A stretch of DNA of 64,000 nucleotides from Candidatus Blautia faecipullorum (lineage in GTDB: Bacteria; Bacillota; Clostridia; Lachnospirales; Lachnospiraceae): positions 62,001-126,000 of the forward strand of contig DXEG01000024.1 in the NCBI GenBank assembly GCA_019115125.1, given 5' to 3'. The position numbers and the translations under genes are program-made. The notes under the pieces are model-generated. The model was not told the origin of the DNA, did no database searches, and worked only from the letters and a program-made list of their open reading frames with translations. Positions 3,521-26,378 of this stretch are shown here, piece after piece (the first letter of the stretch is position 1; each line of letters opens with the position of its first letter).

Positions 3521-4747
3521 ATGAAAATAGATCCATTTAAAGAATATCTGAAAGAGACTGAGCCGGATAAAGCCGGCAAAGGATATGTCTGGAATACAGC
3601 AATCGGACTTCAGGCCGTAGATGGGCTTAAACCATCTGAATATTTGATTGATACTGCCGTTCAGAATATCGAGGGCAAAATCACCATAAAAGAAGCTCAG
3701 AAGCTTATTGACAACTACTATGAAGAAAGAATTACGCATGGGTCAGAAGACGACCGTACAGAAGAAGCGGATAAGGTGTCTTTGCGTATTGCGGAACTAC
3801 TTTCAGAATCAGGCTTTTCATTTTCACCCAATGAGTATATTTCTATCCACCGTAAGCTATTCCGGGGTATCTACAAACATGCCGGAAAGCTGCGAGACTA
3901 CAATATAACAAAAAAGGAGTGGGTTCTGGATGGAGCAACCGTTATATATGGCAGCGCTTCGGAATTAAGCGCTACATTAGAATATGATTTTGCGCAGGAG
4001 AAAGATTTTAGCTACCGCGGTCTTTCCATGGATGAGATTATCCATCATCTTGCTGTGTTTGTATCGAGACTCTGGCAGATTCATATCTTTGGCGAGGGAA
4101 ATACAAGAACAACGGCAGTATTTTTTATTAAATATCTGAGAACGCTTGGATTTTCAGCAACCAACAATATCTTTGCGGATAATGCGTGGTATTTCAGAAA
4201 TGCTCTTGTCCGTGCAAATTATACAAATCTGCAAAAGGGTATTCATGAAACTACAGAGTATCTGGAATTGTTTCTTAGAAATCTTCTTTTGAACGAGAAA
4301 AATACGCTTCGCAACAGGAATCTCCATATAAGCGGGCAATGGACGGCACAGGAAATAAAGATCGAGGAGACAGAAACGGATGATGAGATTAGAAGATCAG
4401 ATAAAGAAAAAGTAGACATTCGAGAGGGAAAAGCGGACATTGAAGGAAAAAAAGTAGACATTCGAGAGGAAAAAGCAGATATCGGAAGAGAGAAAATAGA
4501 CATTGAATTTTCGTTTGAAGAAAAAGCAAAAGAATTTTCCTCAAGGACAGCTTCACATATACGGAAGCTGTTTGACGTATTTGGATATGAAGAGATATTT
4601 GGAAGGAGAGAAATCGTGGCGCTTTTAGAACTGCGGAATTCAAGCGCTTCCAAGCTTTTGTCCAAGCTAGTACATTCCGGGGTGATCGAACCTGTATCCG
4701 GCTGTGGAAAAGGAAGATATAAATTCAGGATAGACAATACAGAATAA
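3521..4747 (+). CDS. fic: Fic-domain protein (AMP-transferase type) with heptad repeat and C-terminal winged helix
   Basis: This is a 408-residue Fic protein. Family members transfer AMP or another phosphate-containing group from a nucleotide to a hydroxyl of a target protein. The catalytic motif is HIFGEGNTRTTA at residues 188-199. The catalytic His188 and the E-G-N anion-binding loop are intact, but the last Arg of the canonical motif is Ala. An N-terminal VQNIEG near residue 47 resembles the class II inhibitory helix (S/TxxxEG) with Val in place of Ser/Thr; Glu51 is kept. Residues 297-331 are five exact-period heptads, K-[VAI]-D-I-x-x-x. The last 60 residues resemble a winged-helix DNA-binding domain. 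It is monocistronic and ends at a strong terminator. The target is unknown. Confidence 0.88.
   Translation: MKIDPFKEYLKETEPDKAGKGYVWNTAIGLQAVDGLKPSEYLIDTAVQNIEGKITIKEAQKLIDNYYEERITHGSEDDRTEEADKVSLRIAELLSESGFSFSPNEYISIHRKLFRGIYKHAGKLRDYNITKKEWVLDGATVIYGSASELSATLEYDFAQEKDFSYRGLSMDEIIHHLAVFVSRLWQIHIFGEGNTRTTAVFFIKYLRTLGFSATNNIFADNAWYFRNALVRANYTNLQKGIHETTEYLELFLRNLLLNEKNTLRNRNLHISGQWTAQEIKIEETETDDEIRRSDKEKVDIREGKADIEGKKVDIREEKADIGREKIDIEFSFEEKAKEFSSRTASHIRKLFDVFGYEEIFGRREIVALLELRNSSASKLLSKLVHSGVIEPVSGCGKGRYKFRIDNTE
4409..4513 (+). repeat. In-frame 21-bp tandem repeat inside fic
   Basis: Five 21-bp units encode K-[VAI]-D-I-x-x-x heptads with no interruption. The 17-mer AGTAGACATTCGAGAGG occurs exactly at about 4411 and again 42 bp later, so the units are arranged as alternating pairs. 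Gain or loss of a unit keeps the frame. It forms a charged linker between the Fic and winged-helix domains. Confidence 0.85.
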
Positions 4748-14277: not shown

Positions 14278-14340
14278 ATGTCTACATTTTCCGCGCTGCT
14301 CCTTGAGACCAGCAAAAGGCTGGAGGCGGAGGATGGATTA
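14278..14340 (+). pseudogene. Scrap of a second antitoxin gene
   Basis: Translation from 14278 gives SALLLETSKRLEAEDG, matching ALLLEASKRLEAAGD of the intact antitoxin 0.5 kb upstream. The codons differ at several positions, so this is a divergent paralogue fragment and not a recent copy. Similarity ends where the stop codon of the convergent kinase gene begins. It marks past recombination at this site. Confidence 0.6.
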
Positions 14341-15618
14341 AGGTATATAAAGAAACAGGATAAACCTTCCGTCCTCTCTTTTCAGCTCCAGCTTTCCATC
14401 ATATTTCTTCACAGATTTCTCAATGCTTTTCAGTCCGTATCCATGAGCGCGGGCACCTTTTTTTGAGGTTCCGGGAATTCCCGGAGCCTCTTTTTGCCGG
14501 TTATCCCGGGCAGGATTTACTATTTTAAGGACGAACATTCCTTTTGCGTACCTGGCTTCCAGACGGACATACCTTTCCTCCGGCGGAAAAGCCTCCGCCG
14601 CTTCGGCGGCGTTGTCCAGAGCGTTCCCCAAAATGGCGCAGAGATCCGGCTTTTCCAGAGGAAGAGTCTGGGAGATATCCGCGTTTACATCAAAACGGAT
14701 CTGTTTCCGTTCCATTGCGGACGCTTTGACAGAAAGAACGATGTTTACGGTTTCGTCGGCGCAGTAGCGCATGGTTTTATAGGCCACAGGGTTTTCCAGA
14801 AGCTGTTTTACATAATGGTTCTTTTCCTCCCCGGACAGAGACAAAAGCGTCTGCAGATGGTTGGAAAGATCATGCTTCAGCCTTCTGACCTCAAAATTCT
14901 GCTCCTCCATGGCCTTATAATATTGTTGGTTCATTTCCAGGAGATTCCTTGATTCCTCCATTTCTCTCCAGCGCGCAAGAAGAGCTGTGGTCGCCAGAAG
15001 CCCGGCGAAGGAAAACAGCGCCAGACCCAGTAAGGAGACGTTCTGAACATCATTCCGAAAGGGTGCGTATCTGGACAAAAGTACCGTACAGAGTACGATC
15101 CCCACGGGAGCGGCAGTCAGAAGCAGAAGGATTTTCCACAGAGTTCCGGTAAGCTCAAAATCATGTTCAGGGGCCAGACGCCTGGCTCCGCCGTACAGGA
15201 TGAACGCGCATATGATCCGGAGCCCAGCCTGCGCCGGATAAAAGGACAGAAAAAAACGGTCGATCAGAGCGTTGTAGGTAAAGACGGTCCCCGCGAGGAT
15301 CAGCGCCATGGAGATCCGTTTGAGGCGGCTTCCCTGGCAGGACAGCCACACAGCCGCTGTGAACAGCAGAAGCGTAGGCGGCAGATTGTCCATGTCGGAC
15401 AGGATAATGACCATTATACCCAGCAGCATACAGGCTGCCGCCAGAAAAATACGGGCGGGCAGTCTCTTTTTTATAATCAGGAAGCAGCCAGCCGTCCTGT
15501 AAATAAAAAATATCAACAGAACCATTTCTATAAAGAAAACTCCCCATTTCACAGCGGTACTTTCATAAGACAGCTTTGTGATATGCATACTGCTCAGACA
15601 GGCGCACAGTTTTATCAT
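14338..15618 (-). CDS. GHKL sensor histidine kinase (AgrC/NatK-like)
   Basis: A 426-residue membrane kinase. The first ~210 residues hold about six hydrophobic segments. A coiled region leads to the H-box EVRRLKHDLSNHLQTLLSL with the phospho-accepting His. The N-box LGNALDNAAEAAEA and G-box AHGYGLKSIEKSV form the GHKL ATP site. Polytopic input domains of this type usually sense peptides. It overlaps the response regulator gene (ATGA) as a second cistron. The divergent Bce-type exporter suggests a peptide-antibiotic detoxification circuit. Confidence 0.9.
   Translation of the reverse strand: MIKLCACLSSMHITKLSYESTAVKWGVFFIEMVLLIFFIYRTAGCFLIIKKRLPARIFLAAACMLLGIMVIILSDMDNLPPTLLLFTAAVWLSCQGSRLKRISMALILAGTVFTYNALIDRFFLSFYPAQAGLRIICAFILYGGARRLAPEHDFELTGTLWKILLLLTAAPVGIVLCTVLLSRYAPFRNDVQNVSLLGLALFSFAGLLATTALLARWREMEESRNLLEMNQQYYKAMEEQNFEVRRLKHDLSNHLQTLLSLSGEEKNHYVKQLLENPVAYKTMRYCADETVNIVLSVKASAMERKQIRFDVNADISQTLPLEKPDLCAILGNALDNAAEAAEAFPPEERYVRLEARYAKGMFVLKIVNPARDNRQKEAPGIPGTSKKGARAHGYGLKSIEKSVKKYDGKLELKREDGRFILFLYIP
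14465..14495 (+). terminator. Terminator-like hairpin inside the kinase coding region
   Basis: A 26-bp near-perfect palindrome (14465-14490, GAGGTTCCGGGAA/TTCCCGGAGCCTC) is followed by TTTTT on the plus strand. It would stop rightward transcripts from the toxin-antitoxin pair. It lies within the 3' end of the minus-strand kinase gene, encoding part of its last ATP-site loop. Confidence 0.6.
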
Positions 15619-16328
15619 TGGTTTTCCTCCAGTATAAGTCTGGCGAAAGCGGCTTCAGCCTCCGGCCGCATATTCCGGCTGACCGGCAGACGGATACCGC
15701 GCAGCTCCACCTCGTTTTTTCCGATATGCTCCACCTTCCGGGCGTTTACCAGGTATCTTTGATGGATGCGGACAAAGCTTCCGCCCAGAGCCATTTGAAC
15801 CTCGTCCATTTTTCCATAAAAGGGATATTCCTTCTCTCCGGTAACCGCCGTGACCTTCCGGCGGTCGCTGTAAAAATACAGGATCCGTCCCAGAGGCATC
15901 CGGTAAGTCCCGTCAGTATTCCGAAAGACAAAGAACTGTTCCTGGTTTCTGAAAAGGATCGTCCGGGCGCGCTCCATGACCTGCTTCAGTTTTTCCGGCG
16001 CCGCGGGCTTTAGAATATAATCCAGAGCCCCCGTCTCGTATCCCGCGAAAACATAGTCCCGGTGCCCGGTCACAAAGACAATAAGAAGCTCCTGATCAAA
16101 GGAGCGTATGAGCCTGGCGGTTTCCATGCCGTCCGGCTCCTTCATTTCCACATCCAGGAACAGGAGATCGATTTCTCCAGGATGTTTTTTCAGCCAGTTC
16201 GCGGCGTTTTTCCCGGAGACAAATTCATATACGATTTCCTCCGTTTCCTCCTGAAGCACTTTTTCCAACGCAAAGCGCAGCGTATCTCTCGCGGCGGTTT
16301 CGTCGTCGCACAGACCGATTCTGATCAT
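15615..16328 (-). CDS. LytTR-family response regulator
   Basis: A 237-residue regulator. The receiver domain starts IRIGLCDDE, has the phosphorylation Asp in LFLDVEM and the conserved Lys in ILKP. The C-terminal LytTR DNA-binding domain contains the FVRIHQRYLVNARKVEHI signature and the terminal strand region with MPLGRI. It precedes the kinase and is divergent from the ABC exporter. Three AACTTTACA direct repeats in the intergenic region are its probable sites. Confidence 0.92.
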   Translation of the reverse strand: MIRIGLCDDETAARDTLRFALEKVLQEETEEIVYEFVSGKNAANWLKKHPGEIDLLFLDVEMKEPDGMETARLIRSFDQELLIVFVTGHRDYVFAGYETGALDYILKPAAPEKLKQVMERARTILFRNQEQFFVFRNTDGTYRMPLGRILYFYSDRRKVTAVTGEKEYPFYGKMDEVQMALGGSFVRIHQRYLVNARKVEHIGKNEVELRGIRLPVSRNMRPEAEAAFARLILEENQ

Positions 16329-16408
16329 ACTTTTTTCTCCTGACAGCCGATTTATTCTGTAATTATTTTATCATTCATCGGGTTTTCTGGAAAGGAGGCT
16401 TTCTTTCA

Positions 16409-16467
16409 AACTTTACATAAACGGAACCGAACTTTACATTTTCTGCACGGGCCGTCCAAACTTTACA
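16409..16467. promoter_or_regulatory. LytTR-type direct repeats between regulator and exporter
   Basis: AACTTTACA occurs at 16409-16417, 16430-16438 and 16459-16467. The first two are 21 bp apart, two helical turns, as expected for LytTR dimers. The third is 29 bp further. They lie between the divergent regulator and exporter genes; a poor -35 and a TATGCT-like -10 at about 16518 suggest activator dependence. Confidence 0.65.
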
Positions 16468-16629
16468 AAAATCCGCACAGGGATTACAGCCAAAATTTTT
16501 CGGGGCTTCGGGAGTGCTATGCTGTTCTTACAAAGAAGAAGCGCTTCCGGAGGTGGATTCCGGATATGCCCTCAGGACTGCTCAATATTGCGGGGAGAGG
16601 GTTGCAGTAAAAAAGAAAGGGGATGCAAT

Positions 16630-17370
16630 ATGTTATATGTTAAAGATCTGAAAAAATCATACACGGTGGGAAAAGAAGTTTATTCTGTTCTGAAGGGAGT
16701 GAGCCTGTCGGTGGCAAAGGGAGAATTTGCCGCTGTTATGGGACCGTCGGGATCGGGAAAGAGCACGCTTTTAAACTGTATTTCCTGCTATATTCCCTTT
16801 GACGGGGGACGGATCACCCTGGGAGGACGGGAGCTGAAGGGAATGAACGAAGGAGAGCTGGCCAGAGTGAGAAATGAAAAGCTGGGCTTTGTGTTCCAGG
16901 ATTTTATGCTGCTGGACGGACTTACCATAAAAGAAAATATCCTTGTTCCCAGAATCATACAGGGAAAGGCGGACAGAAAGGCCGACGCCTTTGCCGGACA
17001 GCTTATGGAGCTGTTTGGAATTACGCATATCGCCGGAAAATATCCGGCGGAGGTGTCCGGCGGCGAGCGTCAGAGAACCGCCGTGGCCCGCAGTCTGATC
17101 AACCGCCCGCTGATGATCCTCGCGGACGAGCCCACGGGAAACCTGGACAGCCGTTCCAGCCGTACAGTTATAGAATCCTTTGAAAACGCCCGGGAGCAGA
17201 TGGGGGCAACTGTTTTTATGGTGACCCACGACAGCTTTTCCGCCTCTTTCTGCGATAAAGTGGTCCTCCTGAAGGACGGCTGTGTATACCGCCAGCTAGT
17301 CAATCCCGGAAATCAGAAGCTTTTTCACAACATGCTTCTGGACGCGATCCGGGAAATGAGTCAGGAATGA
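16630..17370 (+). CDS. Bce-type ABC exporter ATPase
   Basis: A 246-residue MacB/LolD/BceA-family ATPase. Walker A is GPSGSGKST, the signature is VSGGERQRTAVARS, and Walker B is LMILADEPTGNLDS followed by the H-loop MVTHDS. The ATG at 16630 follows AGAAAGGGG; the upstream in-frame extension to 16519 is rejected because it has no site and overlaps the promoter. It is paired with the large FtsX-like permease. Such pairs remove or sense peptide antibiotics at the membrane. Confidence 0.93.
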   Translation: MLYVKDLKKSYTVGKEVYSVLKGVSLSVAKGEFAAVMGPSGSGKSTLLNCISCYIPFDGGRITLGGRELKGMNEGELARVRNEKLGFVFQDFMLLDGLTIKENILVPRIIQGKADRKADAFAGQLMELFGITHIAGKYPAEVSGGERQRTAVARSLINRPLMILADEPTGNLDSRSSRTVIESFENAREQMGATVFMVTHDSFSASFCDKVVLLKDGCVYRQLVNPGNQKLFHNMLLDAIREMSQE

Positions 17371-17407
17371 ATAGCTGCCGCCCTTTGGCAGAGAAAGGAA
17401 GTCTACT

Positions 17408-19519
17408 ATGAATATGCCGGTTTTAGAAAAAAAGTTACGAAAAGCGGATAAAAAACAGGCGGTTTTGTATCTATTCTGTAATTTTCTTTCGCTTATGCTG
17501 ATCACCGCCTATTCCGCCATGATGTTTTCGCCCACAGTGCAGAATATTCTCCCTGAAGGCGGGGACAGCAGAAAGCAGATGTACATGATCTTTGTCCTTG
17601 CCCTGTCGGGCTGTCTGGTTTTTACTGTTTATGCATCTACTCTGTTCTTCCGCAAAAAGTCCAGACAGCTTGGTATCCTTATGGCGCTGGGAGCTTCCAG
17701 AAAACGGCTGGCTCCGGGGCTGTTCAGGGAGGTGCTGCTTTTGAGCTGCGCTTCCTCGGTTCTCGGGATTCTGGCGGGGATCCCCGTTGTCCTCCTGCTC
17801 TGGAGCTTTTTCCGTATTTTTCTGGTAAACACGGCGGAGATGGTTTTTACGCTGAATTTCCAGTGTCTGTATATTTCAGCAGGGATGTTTCTCGCGGCCA
17901 CGTCTTCTGTATGTGTGCTGGCTTTCTTGTATCTGAGGAAAACAAACATCATTGACGTGGTGCAGGAGGAGCATAAAAACGAGCCTGTAAAGGAGCTGGG
18001 AAAATGGTGCGGCCCCGTGGGGATTCTGGTCATGATGGCCGGGGCAGTCCTCGGATACTATCATCCTCAGATCTATGAGGCGCTTTTTAACAAATACGCT
18101 CCCGGATGGGCCAATGCTGCCTATCTGCCTGTTTTTGCCGGCCTTTATATGGTCATGCTTCACACGGTGGTTCACGGCTGGAGCTCCCGCAGGAAGCACC
18201 CCTACAGGAATATCATTGCCAGAAGCATGATGAAGTTTCAGGGAAAACAGACGGTAAACAGTCTGATCGTATGCACGGTGCTGATTGCCGGAGGCTGCTT
18301 TGCCGTCTTTTATCTTCCGATCCTCAGCGTCAGTTCACTGGAGGAGGCAAAAGCCCGCCCATATGATTATGGCTTTCATTACCGGGCGGATCAGGAGCTG
18401 CCCGGAAAAGACGAGATTGCCGGAAAGGCAGGGGAATATGGGATATCTATAAAAGACTGGACAGAAGCGTCCTATATTAGTCTGGCGGTAGACGGCAGAT
18501 ATGAAACTCTGGCGGAGGATGGGACTATTGTACATGAGTACCGGGAAATGAACGCTGAGGCAAAGATTCTTTCAGAAACAGCCTATAACACTGTTACGGG
18601 ACAAAATGCGGACGTTCCCCGCGGCTGTTTTTCGCCCATATCCAATGACGAGGAAACAGGAACCTACAGGGTATCCTCGTCGGATTCTGTTTTTACCAAT
18701 CCGGAGACACGGCGGAAGCTTCCGCTGAAATTCAACGGCTTTCTCCATTTTGGGATGCTGACAGATCAGATCGGGTATTATGTTCTGGATGACGCGGATT
18801 ATAAGGAGCTGGCCCGGGGGATCACGCCCTGCTGGAGCGGAAATCTGGTGTATTTTAACGCGGATGGGAAAGACAGCTATGCGTTCGCGGATGATCTGTA
18901 CCACATGCTGTCCGGCGCTTATGACAGGGACTGTCTGGTATCTGTATACTATAACCGGATTAAGACGGCTCTTATGCGGGAGCAGGGACTGACGGAGGAA
19001 GCGGCCCGGGAGCTTGAAAGTAATGATATGTCGGCTCTGGACCCTGACGCCACGGATTTTCGGCTTTACTGGGCCTATATGCCGAAATTCCGGATACTGG
19101 ATACAAGTGATTTTATGGAAACCTTCGCTGTATTTCTTATGACCTTTTTATTTATCAGCATCATCTGCCTGACGGCCGCCCTGGTGATCGCATATACCCG
19201 CTGTCAGACCATAGCCGTCAATAACCGTTATGTGTTTGACGACCTGAAGCGGCTGGGAGGCTCTCCGGGATATCTGAAAAAGGAGCTCCGCCGCCAGTGT
19301 ACGGACGTGTTCCGGATTCCTGCGGCTTCGGGTATGGGCGCCATGTCTTTTTTGTATCTGATGATTCTTTTCGCAAACGACGGGAGGCTTACCATGTCGG
19401 AGATTCTGGGATTCCTTATATGCATGGGAATTATAGCAGCGGTGGGCGCGCTTTTTTACGGGATCTACACCCATACCCTCCGGATCATCAGCCTGCAGTT
19501 GGAAATTGACAGAAAATAG
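17408..19519 (+). CDS. Bce-type FtsX-domain ABC exporter permease
   Basis: A 703-residue permease with about ten hydrophobic segments. One FtsX domain lies near the N-terminus (TLFFRKKSRQLGILMALGAS) and one near the C-terminus. The large hydrophilic domain at residues about 310-555 sits between membrane segments, the hallmark of BceB/VraG permeases that recognise cell-wall-active peptides. It follows the ATPase by 37 nt with an AGAAAGGAAG ribosome site. Together with the divergent two-component pair it makes a Bce-like resistance module. Here the kinase is a GHKL type instead of the usual short BceS type. Confidence 0.9.
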   Translation: MNMPVLEKKLRKADKKQAVLYLFCNFLSLMLITAYSAMMFSPTVQNILPEGGDSRKQMYMIFVLALSGCLVFTVYASTLFFRKKSRQLGILMALGASRKRLAPGLFREVLLLSCASSVLGILAGIPVVLLLWSFFRIFLVNTAEMVFTLNFQCLYISAGMFLAATSSVCVLAFLYLRKTNIIDVVQEEHKNEPVKELGKWCGPVGILVMMAGAVLGYYHPQIYEALFNKYAPGWANAAYLPVFAGLYMVMLHTVVHGWSSRRKHPYRNIIARSMMKFQGKQTVNSLIVCTVLIAGGCFAVFYLPILSVSSLEEAKARPYDYGFHYRADQELPGKDEIAGKAGEYGISIKDWTEASYISLAVDGRYETLAEDGTIVHEYREMNAEAKILSETAYNTVTGQNADVPRGCFSPISNDEETGTYRVSSSDSVFTNPETRRKLPLKFNGFLHFGMLTDQIGYYVLDDADYKELARGITPCWSGNLVYFNADGKDSYAFADDLYHMLSGAYDRDCLVSVYYNRIKTALMREQGLTEEAARELESNDMSALDPDATDFRLYWAYMPKFRILDTSDFMETFAVFLMTFLFISIICLTAALVIAYTRCQTIAVNNRYVFDDLKRLGGSPGYLKKELRRQCTDVFRIPAASGMGAMSFLYLMILFANDGRLTMSEILGFLICMGIIAAVGALFYGIYTHTLRIISLQLEIDRK

Positions 19520-20776: not shown

Positions 20777-20836
20777 GGGACATTTAAAGCGTTTTAAGGG
20801 ACAGTTTTGTTGATAAAGGACGAAATGTGGTAAAGT
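20777..20836 (+). promoter_or_regulatory. LytTR-type direct repeats and promoter of the lanthipeptide operon
   Basis: GGGACATTT (20777) and GGGACAGTT (20798) are 21 bp apart, and a weaker AGGACGAAA follows at 20817. Around the last repeat lie TTGATA (20810-20815) and TAAAGT (20831-20836) with a short 15-bp spacer, the kind of promoter that needs an activator. The response regulator encoded next is the obvious candidate, implying autoinduction. Confidence 0.6.
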
Positions 20837-20981
20837 AATTTTAGAAAAACGGTGCGGCAGGCAGCCGAAAATCGACAATCAGGAGTAATACAGAGGGAAA
20901 ATCGTTGGTATGACAAAGACACGGCGCCGCCTTAAAAAGTGAGCGCAGAGATATCCTTAGAAACCGGAAGGAGAAAAGAAC

Positions 20982-21686
20982 ATGCTGAAAATAGCGATTC
21001 TCGAGGATGAAGAATATTGTTTGAAGAAAGAAATGTCGATTATAAAGCAATATTTCCAGGAAAAGAGAATTGCTCATGAAATAGCCGCTCACATGAATGT
21101 GGAATGGTTCCTTCTGGGGCTGAAGGAAGAGATCTACGATCTGTATATTCTGGATATAGAGATGCCGTTCAGGAACGGACTGGATGCGGCGAGAGAAATA
21201 CGAAAACTCTATCCGGATCCGGTGATCATCTTTGTGACCAACTATATTGATTACGCGGTAGACGCCTATGAGGTGAATACTTACCGCTATATTTCAAAAG
21301 AAAAAATGGAAGAGAAGCTGCCCGCGGCCTTCGACAGTCTGCTCCCCTCTATTTTGACAAAGGATGAACGGTATTATATGGTCGAGAAAAGAGGAGAGGT
21401 CGAAAAAATTTCCTATGCTGATGTCTATTATCTGAAGAAGGAGGGCAAATATGTCAATCTGGTTCATCGTCATGGAGAGACGAAAGTGAGGGGAACTCTG
21501 GTCGGGATTTTTCAGAAGCTGAACGGAAAGGAATTTCTGTCGGTAGAGAAAAGCTATGTGGTGAACATCAGACATGTGATGAAAATAAAGGGATACGATC
21601 TGATCATGAGGGACGGAGCCGCGGTTCCGGTAGGTATGTCGCGTATAAAGGGAGTAAAGAAGGCAATTCTGGATTACTGGGGGTAA
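20982..21686 (+). CDS. LytTR-family response regulator of the lanthipeptide locus
   Basis: A 234-residue AgrA-like regulator. The receiver domain has the acidic pocket in AILEDEE, phospho-acceptor Asp in LYILDIEMPF, Thr in FVTNYIDYA and Lys in YISKEKM. The LytTR domain includes EGKYVNLVHRHGETKVRGTL in shortened form (YLKKEGKYVNLV) and FLSVEKSYVVNIRHVMKI. A GAAGGAGAA site precedes the ATG. The kinase gene starts 6 nt after its stop. With the precursor and synthetase it forms one transcription unit under repeats at 20777-20821. Confidence 0.92.
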   Translation: MLKIAILEDEEYCLKKEMSIIKQYFQEKRIAHEIAAHMNVEWFLLGLKEEIYDLYILDIEMPFRNGLDAAREIRKLYPDPVIIFVTNYIDYAVDAYEVNTYRYISKEKMEEKLPAAFDSLLPSILTKDERYYMVEKRGEVEKISYADVYYLKKEGKYVNLVHRHGETKVRGTLVGIFQKLNGKEFLSVEKSYVVNIRHVMKIKGYDLIMRDGAAVPVGMSRIKGVKKAILDYWG

Positions 21687-21692
21687 AGGCTC

Positions 21693-23192
21693 ATGGGAGT
21701 TGCAGTGTTATATGGAATTGCCGCCTTTATGGAAACAGGGATCGGGATCTGGATATTTGGACAGGCGTTTCCAAAAAGAGAGCGGATGGAGAAAAGGCAC
21801 ATATGCAGCGAGTGGATATTATTTTTGGGGATTTCAATGTGCGTCTATACATTTCCGAATCTGTTTTTTGAAATCAAGGACAATAAGAAATATATCGGGA
21901 ATCTTCTGGCTGCTCATATGATTGTAACGATCATCTACGCAGCTTACAAAACGAAAAAGACAGCCTGGGGAAAGCGGGAAGCGGATATGATTCGGGGTGT
22001 ATTGTTTAGCGGAATGACTGTGTGCATGTGGTGCCAGTTCTGGAATTCATACCAGTCTTATATGATGACCCTGGCTGGAAATGTTATCCCTGTGCTTTAT
22101 TTATGGGCTTTTTACCGATGCACTTTCGCACAGGCTTATCTTTGGCAGTTTGTGTATGCCACAAACCTGGGAATGTTAAAAAATATCTATATTACTTTCA
22201 ACGGGCTTTATAATGACAGGAGCTTTGAGGACTTTTTTTACTGGCCCCGCAATCATACATACGGGGAAATCCTCTATCTTCTGGTCATCTTTATGATCTT
22301 GATACTGGCGGGCAGATATATTCCCGTAAAGGATACCTTTGCAAAATTGCTGGAGGAGCATAAAAAGGTATTATTTATGTTCGCGTTAGTGGAATGGGGA
22401 ATCCTCATAATAACTGTGGACAATGGACTGGGTGGCAGCGGGGCGGACAAGCTTGCCGCTTCCCTGATCATCACAGGATTTATTACGTTTTGTGTGATGA
22501 TTTTATATGTCAGAGCCATCGTCAGGACGGCAGACGCGGAGAAGATGCTGTTGGACATGCGCAACGAGATTGTGGAGAATCAATATTATGAAATAAAGGA
22601 GGCCTACGAGCGCTACAGATGCATGATCCACGACGAGAAGCATATGCTTCTTTATCTGAAGGAGTGTCTGGACAATGGGGATCTTCTTCATGCGAGAAAA
22701 TTAGTAAACAGCTATCAGAGAGAGCTTCATGAAAACGGCAGATGCAGGTGGACGGGGATCCAGAAGGTGGATTTTATCCTGAGCATCAAGAAACAGAAGC
22801 TGGAGGAGCTGTCCATAAAATTGGAGGTGGACTGCCAGGCGGAGAACATCCCCATGGACGACGCGGATTTCGTGGTGGTCTTCAGCAACCTGCTGGACAA
22901 CGCCATAGAGGCGGCGGAAAAGTGCGGCGTCAGCGACAGAAGGATAGAGGTGATACTGAAAAACATTAACTCGATGTTTTATTTCAAGATGGCGAACGGC
23001 TGCAGCAGCGAACCAACCGTGCGGAATCAGAGATTTCAGACCAGCAAGAAGGAGGGAAAAGGACATGGATGGGGCTTAGAGAGCGTGAAACACATCATAG
23101 AAAAATATAAAGGAGAGCTGTCCTTTAAGTATTCCGATGTGTATTTTGAGGTAAGTATCATAATGAATGTAAACGAAAGAAAAGGAGGGTAA
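21693..23192 (+). CDS. Polytopic GHKL receptor histidine kinase of the lanthipeptide locus
   Basis: A 499-residue AgrC-like kinase, longer than staphylococcal AgrC. Roughly the first 285 residues are membrane-embedded, with seven or so hydrophobic segments and short loops. A dimerisation helix follows. The H-box is YRCMIHDEKHMLLYL, a variant of the usual HDxxNH. The N-box is NLLDNAIEAAEK and the G-box is GHGWGLESVKHI. Such receptors detect cyclic peptides. Its last codons (AAAGGAGGG) double as the ribosome site of the precursor gene that starts 4 nt after its stop, which ties receptor and ligand expression together. Confidence 0.9.
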   Translation: MGVAVLYGIAAFMETGIGIWIFGQAFPKRERMEKRHICSEWILFLGISMCVYTFPNLFFEIKDNKKYIGNLLAAHMIVTIIYAAYKTKKTAWGKREADMIRGVLFSGMTVCMWCQFWNSYQSYMMTLAGNVIPVLYLWAFYRCTFAQAYLWQFVYATNLGMLKNIYITFNGLYNDRSFEDFFYWPRNHTYGEILYLLVIFMILILAGRYIPVKDTFAKLLEEHKKVLFMFALVEWGILIITVDNGLGGSGADKLAASLIITGFITFCVMILYVRAIVRTADAEKMLLDMRNEIVENQYYEIKEAYERYRCMIHDEKHMLLYLKECLDNGDLLHARKLVNSYQRELHENGRCRWTGIQKVDFILSIKKQKLEELSIKLEVDCQAENIPMDDADFVVVFSNLLDNAIEAAEKCGVSDRRIEVILKNINSMFYFKMANGCSSEPTVRNQRFQTSKKEGKGHGWGLESVKHIIEKYKGELSFKYSDVYFEVSIIMNVNERKGG

Positions 23193-23195
23193 AAA

Positions 23196-23327
23196 ATGGA
23201 TTATATTACAGGAAGTATTGAGAGAGAGCTGGAAGAGCTGGAGAAGCTGGAAATAGAAGGACGCGGCGAGGAGGAACCGGGATCGCTGTCAGGCGGACTT
23301 TTATCACTGATTTGTTGCTGGGCATAA
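23196..23327 (+). CDS. lanA: Class II lanthipeptide precursor with a nine-residue core
   Basis: This 43-codon gene was found by eye. The leader is Glu-rich (ERELEELEKLEIEG at 9-22), as LanM-recognised leaders are, and ends LSGG at residues 31-34, a double-glycine cleavage site. The predicted core is LLSLICCWA. It contains one dehydratable residue (Ser37) and two Cys (40 and 41), so only one lanthionine, SxxC or SxxxC, can form. AAAGGAGGG lies 5 nt before the ATG. The position between receptor kinase and LanM, and the tiny hydrophobic core resembling Agr pheromones, suggest a signal peptide. The leader Ser30 and Ser32 precede the GG site. Mature structure is not known from sequence. Confidence 0.88.
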   Translation: MDYITGSIERELEELEKLEIEGRGEEEPGSLSGGLLSLICCWA

Positions 23328-23352
23328 AAACAGGCAGACTTTATGATTGGAA

Positions 23353-26127
23353 ATGACAATGTTCGAAAACTTATATAAATACGCGGTCGGAAAATTTTTA
23401 TCTCATCGGGGGAGCGCTTATAGTTTTCTGTCATTGTACGGGATGGGTGCGCAGGTGCGGAAACAGGCTTTTATGGAGCTGGAAAAAATCGCTCTGCGCA
23501 CCCTCATTCTGGATATTCACAGAAAAAAAGAGGCAGGCGTTCTTTCAGGGCGGACCTCCGGGGAACAGTACCGTTACTACAATGAGGTCTGGCTGGGAGA
23601 AGCGTCAAACATAGAGAGCCTGTTTGAAGAATTTCCGGAATTGCGGAGACTTCTTTTCCTGGAGCTGGAGCGGGTTTATTCCGCTGCGGAGGAGATCTGC
23701 GCCCGCCTGGAAACAGACAGGGAGGAGATCAGAGAGCGGCTCTGCGGCGGAGAAAATTTTGTAAAGATCACCGCCTTTGACTTCCGGGGAGACTCCCACA
23801 GGGGAGGGAAACGCGCGGCCCGGATCAAGCTGGACAATGGAACCGTGCTTTACTACAAGCCCCACACGCTCCTGAGGAACGAACAGTATCAGGAAATATA
23901 CGGCTATCTCTGCCGAAGCGCCGGCATAGCATGTAAAAAGGTGCGGTATCTGTCCCGGGAAACTTATGGCTGGGAGGAAAATATCGAGAATCAGAGCTGC
24001 AGCCGTAAGGAGGAGGTGGAGGCCTATTACTTCCGGACAGGGATACACCTTTTTCTGGGCTATGCCCTGTCGGCCACAGATCTTCACGGGGAAAATATTA
24101 TCGCCTGCGGAGAGCATCCCGTCATCATAGATATGGAAACCTTTCCCGGTTATGCTGTGAGTACAGAGGAAAGCAGCGCGGAAAAGAAAATAGAAAAGCT
24201 CCTGGCCGGATCTGTTCTCCGCACGGGGATGCTCCCGGTTCTTTCCTGGGGAAAGGCGGAGAACGCGGTGCTTGTCAGCGCCATAGGGAATGGCGATACG
24301 GTTGTCACACCTTTTTCACTTCCGGTGGTAAAGAATCGGGATACGGCGGATGTCTGTATCCAATATGAGACTATAAACGTAAAGATAAAAGAGTGCGTGG
24401 TGAAATGTGGGGGAAAGACGGTCTGCGCGGGAGATTACGCGCGGGAGCTGACCGATGGCTTCCGGGCGGCTTATGGGACTGTACTGAAGGATGAAAAAGC
24501 CAGAGCGCTTCTGGCGGCCTTTTTTGACGGGAGAGCGCGGATCATCCTCCGCCATACGCAGCAGTACGCCATGTATCAGATTCTTTCCTTTCATCCTGAG
24601 CTTATGGGAGAAGGGGAGCGCAGAAGAAAAATTCTCGGATCCCTTCACCGGGAAGGTGACACGGAGCAGCAGAGAAGGATAAAGGACTGTGAAATAGACG
24701 GTCTTATGGACTTGGACATTCCGTACTTTGAAATGGAGGGGGACAGCCGCTGCCTTTATGGAGACGGGGAGCGCTGTTTTGAGGATTATTTTTCCCGCAC
24801 GCCCAGAGAAGCGTGGGAAGAGCGTATGCGGAATCTCAGTGAAAAAGATATGGAGGATCAATGCGGCTTTATCCGCCTGTCCATGGCGATGCTTGAGAAG
24901 AGCTCCGGGGCTTCCGGAGAAGTGACGCGCTCATTTTCTTCTTCGGAAAAAACGGAGGAAATCCCTGCTCAGACCGGAAAGATGATATCCCGGCTCTGCG
25001 GCGCCGCCATAACTGCGGGAGAGGATATCGGCTGGGCGGGCCTTAAGTTCTACCATAAGAACCGCTGGAGCCTGAAGCCGGTGGATCTGTATCTGTACGG
25101 AGGCATTGCGGGGATCACTCTGGTTCTGGCGAAATATCAGCAGCTTTTTCCTGATGAAAAGGCAGGGCGGATTTTTTCTCTGGCAGCGGAGAAGATGATG
25201 AGCCACACCGACGCTCTGGCCAAAACGGATCGCCACGAAAAGGTGCGGACAGGTTTGTTGGAGGGGGAAGGATCCTTTGTTCCCGCGTATTTATTTCTCT
25301 ATGATATTACAAAAAACGACAGGTATCTGCTTTATGCCGGAAGGCATTATAAGGCTATGGAGCCCTTCATATGGCAGGACGGCTGCCCGGATTATCTGAG
25401 CGGAATTGCCGGCGCTGGCGCGGCCGCCCTCCTTCTGTTCCAGAGGACGGGGGAAAAAGAATACCTTCTGTCTGCCGTAAAAACAGAAAAAAGGCTGTGG
25501 GCTATGGGAAAGGAGCAAAAAACAGGAGTCGGCTGGATTCTGGAGAATATGGAGCGGCCTTTGGCAGGGATGGCTCACGGCGGCAGCGGAATCCTAATCC
25601 TTTACTGCGGCCTGTATGAAGCCACAGGAGAAAAAGAATATCTGCAGAAGGCAAAGGCCGTTATGGATTATGAGGATTCACTGTTCAGCGAAGAGCTGGG
25701 AAACTGGCTGGATCTCAGAGCGCCGGAAAAGGACGCCCGTGTGATGAACGCGTGGTGCCACGGGGCACCGGGGATTCTCCTGGCCCGTCTCCGGCTTTCG
25801 AAAATAACGGATGACAAACAGGCTTCTGTGGATATTGAGCGGTGTGTGAAAGCGCTTTTTGAAAAAAACACAGACCAACAGCTATGCCTGTGCCATGGGC
25901 TTGCCGGAAACCTTCTGATCATGCGGGAATATTTGAAACATAATCATGATCAGAGGCTTCGGGATATTTATGAAAACTACTGTAAAGAATTTTTATCTGA
26001 GGCTATAGAAGTCTATGACAGCCATAATAATGTGGAATTCCTGAATCCCGCTTTTATGAATGGTTTATCAGGAATCATATATGCTCTCATGATACTTTAT
26101 GAGGATGCGGAGGCTCCGGGATACTGA
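23353..26127 (+). CDS. lanM: Class II lanthionine synthetase LanM
   Basis: About 924 residues, the normal LanM length. The N-terminal dehydratase domain (DUF4135, residues about 60-560) phosphorylates and eliminates Ser/Thr. It shows YYKPHTLLRN and the kinase-like DLHGENIIA with IIDMETF. The C-terminal LanC-like cyclase (from about 590) has GMAHGGSGI and the zinc ligands in NAWCHGAPG and LCLCHGLAGN, all intact. The start is uncertain: ATG at 23353 or 23359, or TTG at 23347, none with a good ribosome site; an 11-codon frame at 23343 overlaps it. It follows lanA by 25 nt. No protease-exporter (LanT) or second precursor was seen. Confidence 0.95.
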   Translation: MTMFENLYKYAVGKFLSHRGSAYSFLSLYGMGAQVRKQAFMELEKIALRTLILDIHRKKEAGVLSGRTSGEQYRYYNEVWLGEASNIESLFEEFPELRRLLFLELERVYSAAEEICARLETDREEIRERLCGGENFVKITAFDFRGDSHRGGKRAARIKLDNGTVLYYKPHTLLRNEQYQEIYGYLCRSAGIACKKVRYLSRETYGWEENIENQSCSRKEEVEAYYFRTGIHLFLGYALSATDLHGENIIACGEHPVIIDMETFPGYAVSTEESSAEKKIEKLLAGSVLRTGMLPVLSWGKAENAVLVSAIGNGDTVVTPFSLPVVKNRDTADVCIQYETINVKIKECVVKCGGKTVCAGDYARELTDGFRAAYGTVLKDEKARALLAAFFDGRARIILRHTQQYAMYQILSFHPELMGEGERRRKILGSLHREGDTEQQRRIKDCEIDGLMDLDIPYFEMEGDSRCLYGDGERCFEDYFSRTPREAWEERMRNLSEKDMEDQCGFIRLSMAMLEKSSGASGEVTRSFSSSEKTEEIPAQTGKMISRLCGAAITAGEDIGWAGLKFYHKNRWSLKPVDLYLYGGIAGITLVLAKYQQLFPDEKAGRIFSLAAEKMMSHTDALAKTDRHEKVRTGLLEGEGSFVPAYLFLYDITKNDRYLLYAGRHYKAMEPFIWQDGCPDYLSGIAGAGAAALLLFQRTGEKEYLLSAVKTEKRLWAMGKEQKTGVGWILENMERPLAGMAHGGSGILILYCGLYEATGEKEYLQKAKAVMDYEDSLFSEELGNWLDLRAPEKDARVMNAWCHGAPGILLARLRLSKITDDKQASVDIERCVKALFEKNTDQQLCLCHGLAGNLLIMREYLKHNHDQRLRDIYENYCKEFLSEAIEVYDSHNNVEFLNPAFMNGLSGIIYALMILYEDAEAPGY

Positions 26128-26146
26128 TTGTCCCGGAGCCTTTGAA
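26111..26146 (+). terminator. Hairpin at the end of lanM
   Basis: AGGCTCCGGGA (26111-26121) and TCCCGGAGCCT (26131-26141) are perfect 11-bp arms that enclose the lanM stop codon. The trailing T-run is short (TTTG), so termination may be partial. Confidence 0.65.
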
Positions 26147-26378
26147 TGTCGTTGATATTATCACGGTTGACCGATATAATGACGATAATTGTTAAAACAA
26201 AAGGCGATAGCAGAAGCTATCCCTGAATTTATGCGGTTTAATATTGTAGAAAGCGAAGTGCGGAATGTCATCTGAAAATACGAATTATTTCACAAAAGAT
26301 AAGAGCAATATGTTCTAACCTGCATTCTGGTTTATAATCTTCTTAAAGGGACAAAAAAGCCTGAGTTAATGACCACTT
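26147..26378. other. Intergenic stretch with a possible decayed coding scrap
   Basis: No intact gene. A 28-codon frame at 26189-26275 starting from TTG (reads AIAEAIPEFMRFNIVESE in part) has protein-like composition but no ribosome site and no family I recognise. A GGGACA at 26348 preceded by TTAAA resembles the repeats upstream of the lanthipeptide operon. Confidence 0.35.

Follow-up and report, generated by a model that had tools for sequence, protein, structure and literature searches.

In a 64,000-nucleotide stretch of the genome of Candidatus Blautia faecipullorum (assembly GCA_019115125.1, contig DXEG01000024.1, positions 62,001 to 126,000; hereafter the window), a gene for a class II lanthipeptide synthetase (LanM) lies directly behind genes for a LytTR-family response regulator (RR), a GHKL histidine kinase (HK) and a short precursor peptide (LanA), which raises the question of whether a lanthipeptide synthetase could here be making a signal. 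We propose that the RR-HK-LanA-LanM cassette would be a peptide-signal circuit that regulates itself, LanM taking the ring-forming role of AgrB, a reading of the sequence to which we give a probability of slightly under 0.6. It starts from what is observed, namely the parts, their recurring order, the geometry of operator and promoter, the clade, and the features that the cassettes lack. The features of the locus are as follows.

20778 to 20806, + strand: LytTR-type operator, a direct repeat GGACATTT-N13-GGACAGTT with 21-bp spacing; the only 0-mismatch copy of this 29-base form in the genome.
20831 to 20836, + strand: candidate -10 hexamer TAAAGT, 32 nt past the start of the second repeat and matching TATAAT at 4/6 positions.
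20982 to 21686, + strand: LytTR-family response regulator (RR), 234 aa; Pfam Response_reg, E 2.9e-15, and LytTR, E 8.3e-17.
21693 to 23192, + strand: polytopic GHKL (AgrC-type) histidine kinase (HK), 499 aa; Pfam HATPase_c_5, E 1.6e-23.
23196 to 23327, + strand: lanthipeptide precursor LanA, 43 aa, core ...SLSGGLLSLICCWA, without a double-glycine leader; 40 of its family's 42 precursors have the ending [ST]-x-x-CC.
23347 to 26127, + strand: class II lanthipeptide synthetase LanM, 926 aa from a TTG start (in-frame ATG at 23353); identified by TIGR03897 and by alignment with LicM2.
26108 to 26144, + strand: strong 16-bp hairpin across the LanM stop, likely the end of the operon (fold of 26096-26160, -31.9 kcal/mol).

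Profile matches confirmed the places and identities of the four products that the original prediction, made from the letters of the window, had put into one tight unit. The kinase carries the H-box HDEKH, the N-box NLLDNAIEA and the G-box GHGWGL, and a simple hydropathy count gives six hydrophobic segments, in agreement with the polytopic nature proposed for it. The intergenic gaps are 6 nt between RR and HK, 3 nt between HK and LanA, and 19 nt between LanA and the TTG of LanM, or 25 nt if the ATG at 23353 is taken as the start; of the gaps first given as 6, 4 and about 25 nt, the first thus stands, the second becomes 3, and the third holds only for the ATG. The Shine-Dalgarno sequence of LanA, GGAGG, was read where it had been placed, within the last codons of HK (AAA GGA GGG TAA AAA ATG). 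As for the hairpin, its T-run is short, and the terminator scan did not list it.

The LanM of the window matches DUF4135 (E 1.6e-93) and LANC_like (E 1.6e-58), scores 680.7 bits against TIGR03897, whose cut-off is 304, and is the sole DUF4135 match in the 3.5-Mb genome. Residues C804, C849, H850, D245, H247 and N250, which we take to have catalytic and zinc-ligand (Cys, Cys-His) roles, are invariant across 12 LanMs. Furthermore, the protein aligns over its full length with LicM2 (6st5), keeping the WCHG, LCHG, GDSH, KPH, TDLHGEN, IDMET and RHT stretches, and since the zinc-ligand and catalytic stretches are kept, LanM looks active.

The last 16 residues of LanA (PGSLSGGLLSLICCWA) contain three Ser and two Cys, the latter being the final Cys pair and the only Cys of the core SLSGGLLSLICCWA; this allows for up to three dehydrations and as many as two rings, and the single ring and loss of one water at first expected are not fixed by the sequence. 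Searches of LanA against Pfam (E<=0.001) and NCBIfam (E<=0.1) returned no family match, AgrD-type thiolactone precursors included.

The recurring cassette and its operator

The original prediction had suggested looking for the order LytTR-GHKL-LanA-LanM in other genomes. Among 397 genomes of the family of the window organism, 26, its own included, have a LanM match at E<=1e-30. The loci set comprised 20 stretches from 19 of these genomes plus 80 more, the best of 523 relatives that a scan with one genome per species had turned up; because only these best 80 were kept, the sample leans toward LanMs like that of the window. The 100 loci and the window gave 105 LanM rows of more than 600 aa; redundant loci (L063, L069, L070, L072, L077 and L085) were dropped, as was L061 from the tree and from the counts of motifs.

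The order recurs. In 42 non-redundant loci, a GHKL kinase stands directly upstream of LanM with a small Cys-ending open reading frame (ORF) in between, and no LanT is recognised within 6 kb, which bears out the absence of an adjacent LanT claimed for the window. A LytTR regulator is recognised upstream in 39 of them, the other three (L034, L064 and L076) being cut upstream by contig ends; loci cut in this way (e.g., L038, L042 and L046) may also hide downstream genes, and 35 of the 42 extend at least 2.5 kb past LanM. The H-box of the kinase has HD in 37/39 loci and HE in L059 and L060. The [ST]-x-x-CC end of the 40 precursors is followed by at most three residues, and the form C-x3-4-[ST]-x2-CC is missing from 15/42 precursors, that of the window included.

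Where the records name a family, the hosts are mostly Lachnospiraceae; the rest are titled Clostridia, Eubacteriales or uncultured bacterium, besides an uncultured Ruminococcus (L083) and Candidatus Onthocola (L093). Among the best 80 of 523 relatives, the closest loci are those of a Eubacteriales metagenome-assembled genome (MAG; L052, 49% identity) and Blautia caecimuris (L053, 47%), followed by a Lachnospiraceae MAG (L054, 45%) and Blautia wexlerae (L055, 45%). In the same-genus genome G263, the neighbouring gene used as an anchor for an empty site had no match. Ten loci have a small gene next to the cassette that by its look encodes an XRE-like regulator; it is divergent in nine (L035, L039, L053, L054, L055, L066, L068, L071 and L083) and on the same strand in L090.

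The LytTR repeats that had been noticed at 20778-20806 belong to a conserved operator. Within 1.3 kb upstream of RR, exact GGACA pairs at spacing 21 (GGACA-N16-GGACA) occur in 15/39 loci, against two loci at most for any other spacing from 6 to 63, and GGACA ranks first among all 1024 five-mers at spacing 21. When a match of at least 9/10 is accepted, the pair is found in 27/39 loci, with 0 to 10 loci for other spacings from 10 to 39, and in 1/56 of the LanM loci without a kinase, where the exact form occurs in 0/56. Moreover, TATAAT-like hexamers (at least 5/6) peak 31 to 33 nt past the start of the second repeat, with 16 matches over 27 sites; 0.42 are expected per distance, and no other distance has more than four. 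Such a layout is that of promoters in which a LytTR activator takes the place of the -35 box, as is the case for AgrA and ComE. Operator spacing and -10 geometry therefore support autoregulation well, binding of the regulator to the operator being predicted.

In the window genome, loose GGACA-N16-GGACA sites number 20 against 24 in the reversed control, and sites of the 29-base form with up to three mismatches number 41 against 43 in the control; the counts being no higher than in the controls, only the exact site at 20778-20806 is meaningful. Two other candidates within the window were set aside. A three-fold 21-bp repeat at 4414-4463 lies inside an ORF encoding seven-residue protein repeats, and an 8/10 site at 26349 is too weak. 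The former ORF (3521-4747) is Fic-like, judging by a motif seen by eye, and its seven-residue repeats mimic a 21-bp repeat in the DNA.

If the cassette works as we propose, LanM would dehydrate Ser residues and, where the 43-aa precursor ends in ...S-L-I-C-C, close one or two thioether rings, the modified peptide would exit via a shared host route encoded outside the locus, and the polytopic GHKL kinase would bind the external peptide. The phosphorylated LytTR regulator would then bind the 21-bp-spaced GGACA repeats at 20778-20806 and activate the RR-HK-LanA-LanM operon. In several relatives, the regulator would also activate a second, downstream operon for secreted-looking proteins and sometimes an ABC transporter.

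Such second operators, in exact form, lie past LanM in six loci, 14 to 138 nt downstream in L043, L045, L060, L074 and L097 and 914 nt downstream in L093. Counting all exact copies past LanM, seven loci have one at spacing 21, including the palindromic case of L037 that is not among the six, vs zero or one at the other spacings from 16 to 27. The GGACA sites about 1 kb past LanM in L037 and L040 are palindromic GGACATGTCC copies and were left out of the outputs. In five of the six loci, an ORF with a hydrophobic, signal-peptide-like start follows 104 to 402 nt beyond the second operator, and in L060 the contig ends; the ORFs behind second operators are candidate outputs of the circuit. In L041, a related protein that also looks secreted belongs to DUF2712, and five loci have downstream permease-like ORFs that group with one another.

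A further partner is a 185-aa protein, here called P185 (e.g., L053:5008-5556), encoded at 21/42 cassettes, upstream of RR in 19 and downstream of LanM in two. P185 has no Pfam or NCBIfam family over cut-off and no PDB fold at E<=0.001, and its AlphaFold model is confident (pLDDT 90). At E<=1e-8 it occurs in 6/150 family genomes, in five of these six at a LanM cassette; the window genome has no P185 match. P185-RR-HK units without LanM occur in L192 (5268-7950, with operator) and in L193, where P185 is broken. The L192 unit has a small, divergent HTH-looking ORF beside it, and its genome, G030, also holds a full cassette at L045; L192 may thus be an orphan, eavesdropping receptor.

Relation to lantibiotic loci

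In a quick tree of 98 LanM rows, the 42 cassette LanMs and seven other rows form one clade (SH-aLRT 98), whose neighbours are five LanMs of LanT-bearing Lachnospiraceae loci; the tree comes with a warning of long branches, L122 and L127 among them. The cassette label requires eight changes on this tree, vs a mean of 32 when shuffled, and 0/500 shuffles were as low. Furthermore, the RR, HK and LanM distances correlate with each other (rho 0.44 to 0.64; 0/500 permutations).

The cassettes differ from other LanM loci in three respects. A LanT is found within 6 kb of 1/43 LanMs with an upstream kinase vs 34/55 without (Fisher p 9e-11, a value that ignores relatedness and cut contigs). A motif of the double-glycine type occurs in 1/42 cassette precursors, and not in that of the window, vs 17/27 LanT loci with candidate ORFs. 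Finally, the CTxTxEC-type lipid II motif known from lantibiotics of the mersacidin/lacticin 3147 A1 type (pattern C[ST]x[ST]x(1-2)[ED]C) occurs in 0/42 cassettes vs 12/41 other LanM loci with candidate ORFs. A passage of PMC7269505 describes the Glu of this motif as essential for the activity of haloduracin A1, and an excerpt of PMC3857288 calls the motif essential for contact with lipid II. In particular, the nearest relatives outside the clade, namely, L073, L080, L084, L086 and L100 (Lachnospiraceae) and the farther L101 (Clostridium), all keep LanT, and the five with a detected precursor (not L086) combine a leader of the double-glycine type with a core of the CTxTxEC type, unlike the cassettes. 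When L080 (LanT-bearing; ...CTWTSECDHLRTLLCC) and the cassette L044 (...YTITVGCSGFLTLICC) are lined up by eye without gaps, the first Cys and the Glu are lost in the latter and the remainder stays in register. The cassette thus probably arose once from a lantibiotic locus after the loss of LanT, the double-glycine leader and the lipid II-binding motif, a direction of change that we infer from these sequences.

As for the seven other rows of the clade, the contigs of L058 and L092 break off directly ahead of LanM, and the copy in L047 is interrupted. No kinase is seen in the 1.8 kb upstream of LanM in L078 or in the corresponding 1.2 kb of L079; a CC-ending precursor is present at L078 and L092. 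In L047, LanM is in pieces, with transposase-looking ORFs between the end of the kinase and the remainder of LanM, as in a decaying copy.

Competing explanations

Several results weigh against a signalling circuit. The operator is lacking at the 9/10 level in 12/39 loci, and in the window genome no second operator rises above background, so that no output gene was identified there. Within the clade, no kinase and no small ORF ending in CC is seen along the 8 kb or more upstream of the LanMs of L032 and L062, and L079 shows neither within its 1.2 kb. The cassette has therefore not been retained by every LanM of the clade; L032, L062 and L079 may be decayed copies or re-used LanMs with another substrate, and they weaken the case a little. 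The original prediction had named homologous loci without the short precursor as evidence that would speak against it, and the outcome is divided: all 42 cassettes have a precursor-like ORF, whereas none was recognised beside these three LanMs of the clade.

No exporter or leader protease was identified either, with no LanT at the locus and no AgrB found in the genome. The AgrB profile PF04647 gave 0 matches in the window genome (97% complete), with a control that matched in only 1/14 genomes and never over cut-off, and Peptidase_C39 gave only two matches, both barely over cut-off, in ORFs 302 and 389 aa long. A modified peptide that is not exported, acting inside the cell or at the membrane, for example on the kinase from within, would fit the missing exporter and double-glycine leader as well as the start of the precursor, which has no hydrophobic stretch resembling a signal peptide. 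However, polytopic GHKL kinases of the AgrC/ComD type detect external peptides, and we regard internal action as very improbable.

A receptor might be expected to vary together with its ligand. The distances between cores and those between kinase sensors are weakly correlated (raw rho 0.11; 22/500 permutations as high; L040, where the kinase frame is split, excluded); given the LanM distance, the partial correlation is -0.001 (260/500 permutations). Moreover, given the sensor, the core leans to the kinase domain (0.13; 16/500), the opposite of what is expected of a receptor. Since the signal is gone once LanM distance is controlled, co-evolution of core and sensor was dropped as support for the circuit. 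This outcome, like the P185-RR-HK units without LanM in L192 and L193, would suit a kinase that senses something else, such as cell-wall stress or a molecule of the host or a competitor, the lanthipeptide being one controlled product. On the other hand, the kinase and the precursor-LanM pair are kept together in 42 loci, P185 stands at a LanM cassette in all but one of the P185-bearing genomes, and an orphan receptor fits eavesdropping equally well, all of which makes a different stimulus distinctly unlikely in our view. The self-activating, Agr-like signal of the original prediction keeps the recurring order, the conserved operator and the missing LanT and lipid II motif in its favour, and has the co-evolution test and the lone LanMs of the clade against it.

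A last point against the signalling circuit is an ABC ATPase encoded within 8 kb downstream in 11/42 cassettes and upstream in four, the window among them, which could represent immunity or export. It bears on the main rival of the circuit, an antibacterial lanthipeptide that, like nisin, turns on its own synthesis and relies on shared host export and trimming, so that signalling only times production. The lantibiotic-type cores of the nearest LanT-bearing relatives and the transporter upstream in the window point in the same direction. Autoinduction of lantibiotics is established, NisK-NisR being listed in a table of PMC8895600, and the nisin O cluster is given in a portion of PMC11811420 as one without a protease. 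Nevertheless, the lipid II motif is missing in 42/42 cassettes, and no immunity-looking neighbour family is common to more than 5/42 loci, LanFEG not having been searched as a family. We thus consider a self-inducing bacteriocin unlikely, if a serious contender, and favour the peptide-signal circuit.

The transporter upstream of the cassette in the window belongs to a module at 14338-19519 that the original prediction had not spotted. A second, divergent LytTR/GHKL pair on the - strand (14338-16328) stands opposite an ABC transporter (16519-19519) whose permease is of the FtsX type and which by size and gene order we take to be BceAB-like. The DNA between them has two copies of AACTTTACA spaced by 21 bp, at 16409 and 16430, with a third near 16459; these repeats are of the LytTR type, with a sequence other than that of the cassette repeat and the same 21-bp spacing. 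The module could serve immunity or export.

Known systems and significance

The cassette resembles Agr systems (AgrBDCA) in its polytopic GHKL kinase, its LytTR regulator, its short precursor, whose C-terminal ring region is hydrophobic, and a direct-repeat operator ahead of its own operon. Different from Agr, no AgrB was found and LanA matches no AgrD family; in place of the thiolactone that AgrB makes, a thioether closed by LanM would form the ring; in addition, RR and HK score 34.7 and 24.5 bits, far below the NCBIfam AgrA and AgrC equivalog cut-offs of 400 and 500. Having found neither AgrB nor an AgrD-type precursor, we do not file the cassette as a member of Agr. With class II lanthipeptides it shares LanM, the active-site residues and a Ser/Cys core, and lacks the LanT and double-glycine leader found there.

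Autoinduced lantibiotics encode dedicated transport and immunity. In PMC10663231, which names nisin (NisRK) and bovicin HJ50, such systems have kinases of the HisKA type and regulators of the OmpR type. The cassette likewise places a lanthipeptide under a two-component system, with presumed induction of its own operon, and has GHKL and LytTR proteins, no LanT and no recognised immunity.

The nearest published case, as far as the part of PMC10301443 concerned with it goes, is CA_C0082 of Clostridium acetobutylicum, a LanM-family gene beside, and controlled by, an Agr-type kinase and regulator. It lies next to complete agrBD/agrCA in all but one species and acts as a LanM-like Agr effector, in that granulose needs CA_C0082 and the active signal does not. 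However, the same text describes CA_C0082 as lacking zinc ligands, catalytic residues and a precursor, whereas the LanM of the cassette looks complete and has a precursor, with no AgrB found. A passage of PMC12715929 reports the classification of 1,412 class II clusters by precursor, transport machinery and LanM; given the sorting by transport machinery, LanT-less cassettes may perhaps have been passed over. Among the matches listed in the open-licence PMC literature (without preprints), we found no description of a LytTR-GHKL-LanA-LanM signalling cassette.

More tentatively, and with somewhat less than an even chance, a clade of gut-type Lachnospiraceae and near relatives may have made a pheromone system out of an antibiotic lanthipeptide locus, by losing the exporter, the leader site and the lipid II residues and joining the GHKL/LytTR pair, so that the thioether ring would be the autoinducer, with secreted outputs in some members and P185 in half. 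Agr and Fsr signals are a thiolactone and a lactone. If the proposal is true, a family of thioether-ringed autoinducers would join them, in gut bacteria about whose peptide signals little is known, and the clade would offer a traceable case of an antibiotic turned signal. Through the 21-bp operator, targets could be sought in the genomes of this clade, and the stable ring chemistry could serve for reading or blocking communication in the gut.

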